Part shown: piece by piece, positions 38,857 through 39,873 of the stretch
Layout: every line of letters begins with the position of its first letter
Position numbering within the stretch: position 1 is the first letter of the stretch
Assembly (NCBI RefSeq): GCF_001648555.1
Contig: NZ_LQXM01000027.1
Location: 1-64,000, forward strand
Source: Rossellomorea aquimaris TF-12
GTDB lineage: Bacteria > Bacillota > Bacilli > Bacillales > Bacillaceae_B
Reading direction: 5' to 3'
DNA: 64,000 nt
The notes under the pieces: model-generated
Databases searched by the model: none
Told to the model about the DNA's origin: nothing
Seen by the model: the letters and a program-made list of their open reading frames with translations, nothing else
Made by a program: the position numbers and the translations under genes

Positions 38857-38888
38857 ATAAAAAAACGACCTGATCAGGTCGTTTTTAA
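38857..38888. terminator. Terminator after the 25-residue micro-ORF
   Basis: Perfect palindrome AAAAACGACCT-GATC-AGGTCGTTTTT with A/T-rich flanks; functional in both directions. Confidence 0.88.
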
Positions 38889-38895
38889 AAATTCA

Positions 38896-38973
38896 CTATT
38901 CTACACTGACTTCCGCTGAAATAATTAAACCAATAACAGATGTTATGATTACTCCCATTACCATTGAAAACAT
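38896..38973 (-). CDS. Micro-ORF 1, 25-residue hydrophobic peptide
   Basis: MFSMVMGVIITSVIGLIISA and EVSVE: one transmembrane helix with an acidic tail. Preceded by GGGAGAGTGATTAGG and ended by a terminator eight bases after its stop. I recognise no family; small size, single helix and tight terminator recall membrane micropeptides or type I toxins, but there is no antisense RNA or homologue to support that. A palindrome AATAAGT-GAACA-ACTTATT lies at 39058-39076 upstream. Confidence 0.45.
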   Translation of the reverse strand: MFSMVMGVIITSVIGLIISAEVSVE

Positions 38974-39057
38974 CCTAATCACTCTCCCTTATTAGTAGCA
39001 ATTTAATTCGCTCTTCTTACTATTAATGTATCATGATTAAGGTGAAATTCCCGGGCA

Positions 39058-39076
39058 ATAAGTGAACAACTTATTA
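39058..39076. promoter_or_regulatory. Palindrome upstream of micro-ORF 1
   Basis: AATAAGT-GAACA-ACTTATT, perfect seven-bp arms, 85 bases upstream of the ORF start. Possible operator; no regulator assigned. Confidence 0.4.
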
Positions 39077-39181
39077 CTAAAGATTGACAGAAATGTGAAT
39101 GAAGCTTTCTTTATTAAATAAAGTTAATTTACAAAAAGGATCAATACCTCGATGTCTGGTACATCTTAAAATGAATAACAA

Positions 39182-39207
39182 AAAGATGCCAACGAATTGG
39201 CATCTCC
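39182..39207 (-). terminator. Terminator of the yrzI micro-operon
   Basis: AGATGCCAA-CGAA-TTGGCATCT (39184-39205), with TTTTTG following on the minus strand. Confidence 0.85.
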
Positions 39208-39216
39208 TTGTACTTA

Positions 39217-39279
39217 CTATTCTTTTACACTTCTTCGTTTTCGAAAGAATGCAGTCCAAATAACAATATTTAAAAACAT
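39217..39279 (-). CDS. Micro-ORF 2, 20-residue basic peptide, YrzI-like start
   Basis: MFLNIVIWTAFFRKRRSVKE. The MxLNI...F(R/K)K(R/K) pattern resembles the first part of the YrzI-family protein just upstream, so it may be a shortened paralogue. AGGTGA lies about five bases before the ATG and a terminator starts 10 bases after the stop. Expression is not proven. Confidence 0.45.
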   Translation of the reverse strand: MFLNIVIWTAFFRKRRSVKE

Positions 39280-39303
39280 ACTTTCACCTACTTTTTCGAT
39301 TCG

Positions 39304-39363
39304 TTAGGCTGTGTCCTTCTCAATCCATAGCGCATTCAGTCTCTTCTCTTGTAAATAAATCAT
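39304..39363 (-). CDS. Micro-ORF 3, 19-residue peptide
   Basis: MIYLQEKRLNALWIEKDTA, charged, no membrane helix. GGAGAGGAGA is nine bases before its ATG; a second overlapping ATG at 39370 in another frame gives a 16-residue product. It lies between the YrzI gene and micro-ORF 2. No family recognised; the weakest of the cluster. Confidence 0.3.
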   Translation of the reverse strand: MIYLQEKRLNALWIEKDTA

Positions 39364-39394
39364 TTTTCATTCTCCTCTCCATAAATTATTAGAA

Positions 39395-39538
39395 TTAAAA
39401 AATTTGAGACATTTTCGTATATTGCTTGGATTTTGTTTCTTCAAATCGCTGTGAAACATTTTCAAAATGTGTAGCTTCATCAAATGTTTCTTGTTTCTTT
39501 TTAAATGTAACGGTTATAAACAATAGATTTAGTGTCAT
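39395..39538 (-). CDS. yrzI: YrzI family small protein
   Basis: 47 residues: MTLNLLFITVTFKKKQETFD, then EATHFENVSQRFEETKSKQY and TKMSQIF. The MTLN(I/L)FF(L)T(I/V)T start and short amphipathic tail match YrzI (probable Bacillus sporulation protein family). GGGGTGAT precedes the start. Own promoter, downstream of two terminators. Role unknown. Confidence 0.85.
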   Translation of the reverse strand: MTLNLLFITVTFKKKQETFDEATHFENVSQRFEETKSKQYTKMSQIF

Positions 39539-39565
39539 ACATATCACCCCTTTCAAAGCTTACTA

Positions 39566-39594
39566 ATCATAAAACGATATAGAAGCTAAAACAA
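39566..39594 (-). promoter_or_regulatory. Sigma-A-like promoter for the yrzI micro-operon
   Basis: Minus strand TTGTTT (39589-39594), 17-base spacer, TATGAT (39566-39571), placed right after the preceding terminator. Confidence 0.65.
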
Positions 39595-39601
39595 AATAAA
39601 A

Positions 39602-39628
39602 AGCCACAAAGAAAGGCTCCTTGTGGCA
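39602..39628 (-). terminator. Second of two tandem terminators after micro-ORF 4
   Basis: GCCACAAAG / CTTTGTGGC-type stem (39603-39627, small internal mismatch) followed on the minus strand by TTTTTATTTTG. Confidence 0.8.
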
Positions 39629-39666
39629 CAAAAAAGCCACAGGAAAGTCATCCTCCCTGTGGCTAT
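39629..39666 (-). terminator. First of two tandem terminators after micro-ORF 4
   Basis: AGCCACAGG / CCTGTGGCT stem with TTTTTTG tail on the minus strand. It shares the GCCACA arm with the next terminator, suggesting duplication. Confidence 0.88.
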
Positions 39667-39684
39667 CATTTAAATAAAATTAAA

Positions 39685-39765
39685 TTAAGCGAAAAACATC
39701 CCACAAGTGGTCGAATGAATCGTACTATATAAAATTGTTTTCTTTTTATCAATTAAAATAAACAT
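39685..39765 (-). CDS. Micro-ORF 4, 26-residue peptide
   Basis: MFILIDKKKTILYSTIHSTT and CGMFFA. Strong AAGGAGGTCG site nine bases upstream, a near-consensus promoter 44 bases further up and two terminators after it: a complete single-gene transcription unit. Sequence unlike known families I can name; a short coding RNA or small regulatory RNA are alternatives. Confidence 0.55.
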   Translation of the reverse strand: MFILIDKKKTILYSTIHSTTCGMFFA

Positions 39766-39808
39766 GTTATTCGACCTCCTTTAATGTGAATTTTTTCTTA
39801 CATTGGTT

Positions 39809-39837
39809 AGTATATCCAATTATAGATTAGAAGTAAA
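39809..39837 (-). promoter_or_regulatory. Sigma-A promoter of micro-ORF 4
   Basis: Minus strand TTTACT (39832-39837), 17-base spacer, TATACT (39809-39814). Confidence 0.75.
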
Positions 39838-39873
39838 CCTATTTCGTGATATTTTTTTCTACAATTTCCCACA

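Follow-up and report, generated by a model that had tools for sequence, protein, structure and literature searches.

A yrzI-type peptide operon in Rossellomorea aquimaris with a conserved leader that may act as a ribosome-dependent transcription attenuator

Which of the five very short ORFs lying together on the minus strand of this Rossellomorea aquimaris TF-12 contig are genes, and what might control them? The window, meaning the whole 64,000-nt stretch that was analysed, carries here ORFs of 26, 47, 19, 20 and 25 codons, whose coordinates we confirmed. The five are all real, though not of one kind. A sequence-only reading had held that they are not random open frames; counterparts of each are present in related genomes, and this conservation rules chance frames out. 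We read the region as the Rossellomorea version of the yrzI (spyTA-type) operon, preceded by its own 5' leader, which works as a ribosome-dependent transcription attenuator of six RNA segments; an unrelated hydrophobic-micropeptide gene follows. We give this joint reading a probability of roughly 0.6. The ORFs and the terminator of the yrzI unit are:

39685..39765, minus strand: ORF 4, the 26-codon leader ORF; frame kept, peptide not
39395..39538, minus strand: yrzI, 47 aa, PF09501; kept in 36/36 genomes
39304..39363, minus strand: ORF 3, 19 aa (MIYLQEKRLNALWIEKDTA), an S1025-type peptide; in 35/36 genomes
39217..39279, minus strand: ORF 2, 20 aa (MFLNIVIWTAFFRKRRSVKE), a short YrzI-like peptide; in 29/36 genomes
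39178..39211, minus strand: terminator of the yrzI unit, 3' of ORF 2; found by terminator scan
38896..38973, minus strand: ORF 1, a 25-aa hydrophobic micropeptide in its own unit; in 27/36 genomes (strict regular expression)

The earlier reading had proposed that relatives be compared for start codons and synonymous bias. That comparison shows coding constraint on YrzI, ORF 3, ORF 2 and ORF 1, while for ORF 4 the start is kept and the peptide is unconstrained. Values of pN/pS were 0.23 for yrzI (22 distinct sequences, 36 genomes), 0.24 for ORF 3 (27 distinct sequences), 0.34 for ORF 2 (14 distinct sequences) and 0.12 for ORF 1, against 1.19 for ORF 4; they were computed on sequences of the commonest length only, and the window's own YrzI and ORF 2, which differ in length, are thus outside the set. 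As had been supposed, only the 47-residue product has a family. It matches Pfam PF09501 at 31.4 bits (cut-off 23) and scores 22.8 bits against NCBIfam TIGR02413, under the cut-off of 47.05, so we class it as a YrzI relative by the Pfam cut-off and not as a TIGR02413 member. The genome contains one YrzI match.

The 19-aa ORF, previously left unassigned, matches Bacillus S1025. Residues E15, K16 and D17 are invariant among its distinct sequences, the Glu-Lys-Asp is retained in 35/36 genomes, and Glu-Lys is encoded GAG-AAG in 31 of those 35. The peptide ends ...WIEKDTA in the window; the Bacillus-type counterpart, of 17 aa, ends in MEKDQV at four of five loci and IEKDQV at the other. More broadly, a peptide ending D[STQ]x-stop follows yrzI in 99 of 141 distinct yrzI loci, with EKD in 82 of the 99. 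The 20-residue product had been taken for a shortened YrzI start, either a decaying paralogue or a deliberate micropeptide. It is YrzI-like, and we prefer the second option because the ORF is maintained in 29/36 genomes at a pN/pS of 0.34, which decay fits less well. Short peptides resembling it are present in other genera.

This gene order recalls the B. subtilis yrzI operon (S1026, yrzI, S1025, S1024), which Gilet et al. 2025 call spyTA in their title; the yrzI mRNA (S1025) was the first Rae1 substrate to be characterised. Both operons have a PF09501 YrzI followed by a peptide of 17-19 aa with Glu-Lys-Asp near its end, and both genomes have a Rae1 gene (here Rae1/YacP, PF05991, 207.9 bits, at G000:C17). 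The transcribed leader in Bacillus is about 230-300 nt: the interval separating yrhG from yrzI in B. subtilis contains an RNA of 234 nt, and a 301-nt 5' UTR is listed for B. licheniformis yrzI. The settings differ: in Bacillus-type loci L195 and L213 the operon is flanked by genes for a yrhG-type transporter and a methyltransferase, whereas that of the window is downstream of yrhC, and the third ORF of Bacillus-type loci looks unrelated to ORF 2. In Bacillus, YrzI is toxic and its partner peptide protective, as toxin and antidote, and Rae1 reportedly cleaves between Glu and Lys codons in a translation-dependent manner. By analogy, YrzI and ORF 3 may have toxin and antidote roles, and the Glu-Lys codons of ORF 3 would be the expected site of Rae1 cleavage.

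What precedes yrzI is of another nature. Between 38600 and 40100 the terminator scan returned five sites against 0.7 expected (one on the plus strand, one overlapping the tandem pair behind ORF 4), while a promoter consensus scan gave 7 sites against 6.9 expected and is uninformative alone. Rfam, searched with the whole window, gave no family at gathering score, all matches at E<=1 being far below gathering. The proposed division into ORF 4, yrzI-ORF 3-ORF 2 and ORF 1 is real, but the tandem terminators behind ORF 4 look like an attenuator and not a unit boundary. The leader elements are:

39809..39837, minus strand: leader promoter TTTACT-17 nt-TATACT, within the block TTGGATATACT-N-ACC-NN-TGTAAG; conserved across genera
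39769..39776, minus strand: segment A (GGTCGAAT), forming the 3' half of AGGAGGTCGAAT, which is the Shine-Dalgarno of ORF 4; pairing with B supported by comparison
39709..39716, minus strand: segment B (ATTCGACC), an 8-nt motif inside ORF 4; from its conservation and covariation with A
39635..39664, minus strand: terminator 1 (T1), in tandem with T2 after ORF 4; found by terminator scan, its 3' arm being segment 2
39657-39649, minus strand: segment C (GGGAGGATG), in the T1 5' arm and loop; complementary to B
39603..39627, minus strand: terminator 2 (T2), with arms (segments 3 and 4) much like those of T1; found by terminator scan

Two promoters had been suggested. The first (39809-39837) shows strong conservation from genus to genus: its block is the same in Rossellomorea loci (GGGTATACT in L056) and in most other leaders among those listed, and the pattern of promoter plus Shine-Dalgarno occurs in at least 119 contig stretches in a scan of genome contigs. 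The second, at 39566-39594, was not borne out, being missing from the consensus-scan sites and having its -10 box TATRAT in 0/35 other Rossellomorea loci. Intrinsic terminators stand before yrzI without an internal promoter, as the attenuator class demands. In 45/88 leaders no more than 40 nt separate the end of the last hairpin from the yrzI ATG (three gaps of 7-8 nt possibly reflect false hairpins); in the window this gap is 64 nt, and a promoter would therefore fit there.

For comparison we used 136 leaders, 109 picked by the promoter/Shine-Dalgarno pattern and 27 by YrzI. Identical leaders were collapsed. L111 and L179 were excluded as having no start codon (L111, a Muribaculaceae contig, is probably a chance match); L097, L099 and L157 were also left out. 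Among pattern-chosen loci yrzI is present in 103/112 by an ATG rule, and a less strict rule adds three; L097, L099, L157 and L162 are truncated or doubtful for yrzI, its frame is broken in L103, and L098 has no yrzI within 274 nt. Of 394 genomes in the order, 98 carry the pattern A-ATG-B, each of them a single time; the reversed-pattern control gave 0 among the matches listed.

The start of ORF 4 lies 5 nt past GGAGGTCGA (an AGGAGG-type site) in 133/136 leaders, and the frame is open for 22-42 codons in 136/136, which suggests a leader ORF with a ribosome-binding site of the kind that the attenuator class demands. A strong Shine-Dalgarno, a start codon and a frame that remains open would also suit five independent micropeptide genes with ORF 4 making a functional 26-aa peptide, and the relevant part of a B. 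amyloliquefaciens paper lists the yrzI-yrhG transcript as small-protein-coding. We consider this highly unlikely, since beyond the pN/pS of 1.19 the variable sites by codon position number 18/19/18 and the conserved block is read in three frames across genera. The longest invariant block of ORF 4 is the nucleotide motif CATTCGACC, and the earlier suggestion of a micropeptide gene is disfavoured on these grounds. We also rejected the idea that ORF 4 encodes an arrest peptide: its seemingly conserved HST/IRP/FD motif proved to be a single RNA sequence that falls in all three frames. ORF 4 is probably the decoy reading frame of an RNA switch and not a protein gene. It is a trap for small-protein surveys: start, Shine-Dalgarno, length and, within the genus, apparent amino-acid conservation are all there, while the constraint is on RNA.

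Segment B, as TTCG[AG]C, is found in 127/136 leaders, in frames 0, 1 and 2 of the leader ORF in 23, 17 and 87 cases, and the ORF is open beyond it in 127/127. A leader of this type would read ribosome progress and not peptide sequence, and B would therefore be bound to no frame. Comparative evidence supports pairing of B with A. Because a G-U-tolerant pairing test has little power for single loci, we employed slides and positions not used for motif finding. In register, 92.1% of cells were paired, and shifts of 1-3 nt left no more than 56.0% (81 distinct rows, 8 of them from loci whose selection pattern already prescribes most of A and B). The two core pairs unused for motif location, in the YrzI-chosen loci, were paired at 0.904 against 0.730 for dealt strands (0/5000). 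Leaders with a B score below 5/6 were excluded, leaving 94/98 for this core-pair test and 93 for the B:C, folding and flank tests described below. Compensatory changes are seen in Bacillus-type loci (GGCTGAAT:ATTCAGCC) and in L198 (GGTTGAAC:GTTCAACC); Pseudalkalibacillus-type loci have GGTCGAAC:GTTCGACC. There are counter-cases: A is altered and B uncompensated in L209 and L247, pairing is missing in L189 and L193 and poor in L262, and pair 8 is a G-A mismatch in 28/81 rows.

An inverted repeat immediately downstream of a promoter could also represent DNA, with A and B (GGTCGAA/TTCGACC) as the two halves of an operator whose dimeric repressor loops the promoter region, and joint change of both halves would suit a protein site too. 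That A is the Shine-Dalgarno, that B lies within the leader ORF in 127/127 leaders having it, that G-U pairs are tolerated at several positions, that A-B spacing is highly variable and that a third copy is located in T1 make such an operator extremely unlikely in our view.

Under the attenuator reading, B would have a second partner in C. In 10/13 loci of one set the sequence GGTCGA, resembling A, recurs in the 5' arm and loop of T1, and GAAT is found in the first hairpin of 53/83 leaders and the second of 7/83 (the window has GGAT there). The B:C duplex averages -8.0 kcal/mol (93 leaders) against -4.5 for B:T2 (79 leaders), being stronger in 40 distinct cases and weaker in 5, and it beats shuffled C in 53/55; B and C are altered jointly in L198 and L253. 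The comparison shows B to be more complementary to T1 than to T2. In Bacillus-type loci the core B:C is weak (-2.4 to -5.7), and a flank of B pairs there instead. Pairing of the ORF 4 sequence just past B with the T1 arm looks strong both in Bacillus-type loci and in the window; we rejected it as a general feature (against shuffled sequence, stronger in 52 and weaker in 26 of 93). At least two hairpins lie between leader ORF and yrzI in 83/98 leaders, and T1 and T2 share arms: the 2:3 duplex has -14.18 kcal/mol with its own partner against -12.10 when permuted (0/5000 permutations, which ignore relatedness). Concerted evolution could account for this likeness. The alternative antiterminator pairings that the attenuator class demands, involving the leader ORF, would, judged by sequence and energy, be B:C and 2:3.

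We propose that the six segments, namely A, B, C/1 (the T1 5' arm and loop), 2 (the T1 3' arm), and 3 and 4 (the T2 arms), work as follows. With no ribosome, A:B would form, C would be left untouched, and 1:2 and 3:4 would form and stop transcription. A ribosome moving normally along ORF 4 would cover B, and the terminators would form again. If instead a ribosome were held on the start codon or the first few codons, it would cover A and leave B free to pair with C while C is being transcribed; with B:C formed, arm 2 would be free to pair with arm 3, and polymerase would read into yrzI. Slow or stalled translation would thus be the signal.

Folding up to C is consistent with B turning to C once A is covered. 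In the window A:B has a probability of 0.98 and B:C of 0.0005 without a ribosome, and B:C reaches 0.65 with A covered; covering A raises B:C in 86/93 leaders. With B shuffled the value is 0.23 against 0.68 for the leaders' own B, which is higher in 75/78 (this control and the equilibrium folding used 78 leaders, a folded T1 also being required). At equilibrium without pseudoknots, T1 is dominant whether A is covered or not (means 0.89, 0.83 and 0.89; 78 leaders; 0.98 in all three ribosome states in the window), and antitermination would therefore need to be kinetic.

The persistence of T1 in each ribosome state also suits a leader that serves as a small RNA, acting in trans or with a dual function, and is ended by the tandem terminators, with yrzI expressed by constant leak-through, A:B protecting the RNA or hiding the Shine-Dalgarno, and no ribosome-controlled antitermination. 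The 234-nt yrzI/yrhG RNA is moreover among the Hfq-associated RNAs of B. subtilis (RPKM ratio 22.2). We hold this explanation to be doubtful, though a serious competitor; it leaves unexplained the B-complementary loop, present in T1 and rarely in T2, the shared T1/T2 arms and the openness of the ORF past B in 127/127 motif-bearing leaders. A role of the sRNA RoxS, an early literature lead, was without yield.

Attenuation by ribosome progress would supply the yrzI operon with a signal, translation stress; the literature passages on yrzI that we covered do not explain what switches the operon on. Depletion of tRNA maturation (RNase P/Z) raises yrzI and bmrCD mRNAs together, for which other explanations exist, the yrzI effect being discussed in that source as mRNA stability; both mRNAs also rise jointly in a whiA mutant. 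The bmrB leader of bmrCD in B. subtilis, as described in the pertinent passages of PMC4191407, is likewise a leader ORF, one that must be translated for antibiotics to induce readthrough, by ribosome-mediated attenuation with alternative stem-loops, where antitermination in the window's leader is our proposal. Its stem-loops are inside the bmrB ORF, whereas the tandem terminators of the window are behind ORF 4, and the window's leader differs further in its frame-independent B and in its own Shine-Dalgarno serving as a switch arm. Similarly, in the sections of PMC12121999 on E. coli topAI-yjhQ, the short upstream ORF toiL controls a toxin-antitoxin operon and senses ribosomes held by several antibiotics, tetracycline stalling them at the toiL start codon. 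Its targets, however, are the ribosome-binding site of topAI and Rho-dependent termination, in contrast to two intrinsic terminators before yrzI.

If the attenuator reading is true, the leader would be a direct gauge of how ribosomes initiate and begin to elongate, and it would couple translation distress to a toxin-antidote peptide operon whose own RNA is a target of a ribosome-dependent nuclease. We see the odds as evenly balanced that it represents a new attenuator type across Bacillaceae, dedicated to yrzI-type peptide operons and marked by a selected start and openness, a free peptide, its own Shine-Dalgarno as first arm, a six-segment domino and two tandem terminators.

ORF 1 lies beyond the yrzI terminator. 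Of the three terminator sites formerly assigned, the scan recovers those after ORF 4 (the tandem pair) and ORF 2; the hairpin and T-run 3' of ORF 1, at about 38886-38861, is legible in the sequence and absent from the scan list. The product of ORF 1 is probably a single membrane helix, and neither Pfam nor NCBIfam gives a match to it at E<=1. There is one ORF 1 match in the genome, and the family has at least 60 distinct members, many with a TGTTCAC-type block upstream.

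The sequence-only reading listed five minus-strand micro-ORFs, two promoters, and three terminators, and offered paralogue decay or a micropeptide as the origin of the 20-residue product. The five micro-ORFs are present in the window, as are the upstream promoter and the tandem terminators (T1, arms 1:2, and T2, arms 3:4) lying between ORF 4 and yrzI. The locus was compared across 36 genomes, comprising the window and 35 others of the same genus, with pN/pS ratios computed on sequences of the commonest length. YrzI is found in 36/36 of these same-genus genomes, with a pN/pS of 0.23 and in one to four tandem copies, the 19-aa ORF 3 in 35/36 (0.24), the 20-aa ORF 2 in 29/36 (0.34), and the 25-aa ORF 1, by a strict regular expression, in 27/36 (0.12). 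The proposal that the cluster encodes micropeptides is upheld for these four of the five ORFs (pN/pS 0.12-0.34), which on comparative grounds we regard as peptide-coding, and fails for ORF 4, with a pN/pS of 1.19 in the same comparison.

39685-39765, minus strand: ORF 4, leader ORF of 26 aa
39395-39538, minus strand: yrzI, 47 aa
38896-38973, minus strand: ORF 1, of a 25-27 aa family with one hydrophobic stretch and a conserved tail [AG]-x-E-[VI]-S-V

Residues 15-17 of the 19-aa ORF are Glu-Lys-Asp, invariant over 27 distinct sequences. Five loci from a single other genus have a 17-aa counterpart, which ends in MEKDQV in four and in IEKDQV in one. S1025 of Leroy et al. 2017 is reportedly 17 aa and cleaved between the Glu codon and the Lys codon. 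Gilet et al. 2025 use the name spyTA in their title. In Bacillus, YrzI is reported to be toxic and S1025 protective. In the two of those five loci whose neighbours were read (L195 and L213), yrzI is flanked by a yrhG-type transporter and a methyltransferase, which is the gene order of B. subtilis. A short peptide 3' of yrzI ending in D[STQ]x occurs in 99 of 141 distinct yrzI loci (EKD in 82 of the 99); the remaining 42 include misses of the search rule, and other tails are seen in L061 and L283-type variants. Rae1 is encoded in the Rossellomorea aquimaris TF-12 genome. Identification of the locus as the yrzI operon is near certain. In L012, L016, and L283-L295, a single leader precedes an array of repeated pairs, each a YrzI copy plus a short peptide with an EKD-type, VEKGLT, or KWVP ending.

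ORF 4 is open for 22-42 codons in 136/136 leaders, 109 of which were chosen by a promoter and Shine-Dalgarno DNA pattern, and its start codon lies 5 nt 3' of GGAGGTCGA in 133/136. Its variable sites are spread evenly over the codon positions (18/19/18), and its longest invariant stretch is CATTCGACC. The motif TTCG[AG]C falls in frame 2 in 87 of the 136, frame 0 in 23, and frame 1 in 17, and is absent in 9, such that the same nucleotides of this motif (B) translate across genera as H-S-T, I-R-P, or F-D; even within Rossellomorea, three genomes (L057, L058, L065) carry it in another frame. Three-frame reading and even codon-position variation together imply that what is kept is the start of ORF 4, its openness, and one RNA motif, and no peptide. 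In many of the listed matches to the pattern A-ATG-B, ORF 4 contains a second recurring block (39721-39740, minus strand), TTCATAT or a close variant, some 10-20 nt 5' of B. Just past the -10 box (39790-39815, minus strand), conservation extends beyond that of a normal promoter as T-N-ACC-NN-TGTAAG, partly dyadic (TTAC-N4-GTAA), possibly an operator.

Since the DNA pattern fixes the Shine-Dalgarno side of the pairing, covariation between B and A, the 3' half of the ORF 4 Shine-Dalgarno, was tested on loci chosen by YrzI protein. This set comprises 98 leaders from 97/153 loci, a total of 153 that counts certain places twice; the motif could be recognised in 94 leaders, giving 26 distinct strand pairs. 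A and B co-vary in this set, GGTCGAAT pairing with ATTCGACC, GGCTGAAT or GGTTGAAT with ATTCAGCC in Bacillus-type loci, and GGTTGAAC with GTTCAACC in L198. Two core positions unused in motif finding are paired in 0.904 of cells versus 0.730 for re-dealt strands (0/5000, a test that ignores relatedness). Over 81 rows, including 8 extra distinct rows from 13 pattern-chosen loci, 92.1% of cells are paired in register versus at most 56.0% when slid, with pair 8 a G-A mismatch in 28/81. Exceptions are L209 and L247, which retain ATTCGACC opposite GGATGAAC, and L262, where pairing is poor; within the protein-chosen set, A:B pairing is absent in L189 and L193. These two leaders (G180 and G154, respectively) have tandem hairpins before yrzI and possibly represent a diverged switch.

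At least two U-run hairpins lie between ORF 4 and yrzI in 83/98 leaders and one in 15/98. Their arms are mostly common to T1 and T2 (GCC[GA]CAGG / CCTG[CT]GGC), and T1 arm 2 pairs with T2 arm 3 at -14.18 within a locus versus -12.10 permuted (0/5000, ignoring relatedness). The first hairpin contains GAAT in 53/83 leaders and the second in 7/83; with GAAT, the T1 5' arm and loop (C) reads GG..GAAT, like A, and in the window GG..GGAT. Pairing of B with T1 averages -8.0 kcal/mol (93 leaders) versus -4.5 with the same place in T2 (79), is the stronger in 40 distinct cases and the weaker in 5, and beats shuffled sequence in 53/55. B and C change jointly in L253 (B ATCCGACC, C GGACGGAT) and in L198, where C is GGTTGAAC.

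Folded up to C, the window leader gives A:B 0.98 and B:C 0.0005 with no ribosome, and B:C 0.65 with A covered. Covering A raises mean B:C from 0.11 to 0.68, with an increase in 86/93 leaders, versus 0.23 in the B-shuffled control; a ribosome covering A would thus shift B from A to C. With arm 2 included, T1 dominates at equilibrium in every ribosome state, which counts against the model and means that any antitermination must act during transcription. The case for a conserved RNA leader is strong, and attenuation by ribosome position in ORF 4 appears the best explanation of its anatomy. No Rfam family matches the leader, and no account of it as a switch was found in the titles, abstract openings, and passages covered, although Leroy 2017, Deves 2023, Condon 2018, and Gilet 2025 may contain one.

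The exact pattern A-ATG-B occurs once each in 98/394 genomes of the order, and its reversed control in none of the matches listed; PF09501 was found in 193/397 genomes of the order. By hand comparison of lists, 13 of the 98 had no PF09501 match with an E value of 0.001 or less, and inspection by eye found YrzI-like ORFs and short peptides downstream of all 13 leaders; ten of these 13 have a T1 that reads GGTCGA, like A, and an eleventh has GGTCGT. Among pattern-chosen loci, yrzI is recognised in 103/112 under a strict rule, and relaxing the rule adds three. In L103, yrzI lies downstream of the leader at 286 but has a broken frame, from either sequencing error or decay; L098 has none within the 274 nt examined. 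The second promoter claimed before yrzI (39566-39594) was not borne out, its -10 box occurring in 0/35 other Rossellomorea. The distance from the end of the last hairpin to the yrzI ATG is 40 nt or less in 45/88 leaders (median 40) and 64 nt in the window, and a promoter would fit between them in the window alone.

From published work, yrzI has a 301-nt 5' UTR and a 541-nt 3' UTR in B. licheniformis RNA-seq (PMC3871023), the B. subtilis Hfq-associated RNA table lists a 234-nt RNA between yrzI and the adjoining yrhG (RPKM ratio 22.2; PMC3574147), and the B. amyloliquefaciens yrzI-yrhG transcript, formerly an sRNA, is termed small-protein-coding (PMC4634765). These transcripts are consistent with a leader that often terminates and is sometimes read through. 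The yrzI and bmrCD mRNAs rise together when RNase P or RNase Z is depleted, an effect discussed there with regard to mRNA stability (PMC10100781), and in a whiA mutant (PMC10714963); yrzI is 4.3-fold up in a yhfW mutant (PMC7317962), and a translated leader controls bmrCD (PMC4191407).

A regular expression for the ORF 1 family matches 115/274 loci, and the genome of the window has one match to ORF 1; ORF 1 has no match in Pfam or NCBIfam at E up to 1. About 60-100 nt 5' of it, many members carry a block ending TGTTCAC and a -10-like block. The TTCAC(A) half-site is reminiscent of Rex, ResD, or Fnr operators, a hint that the family may be tied to respiration.
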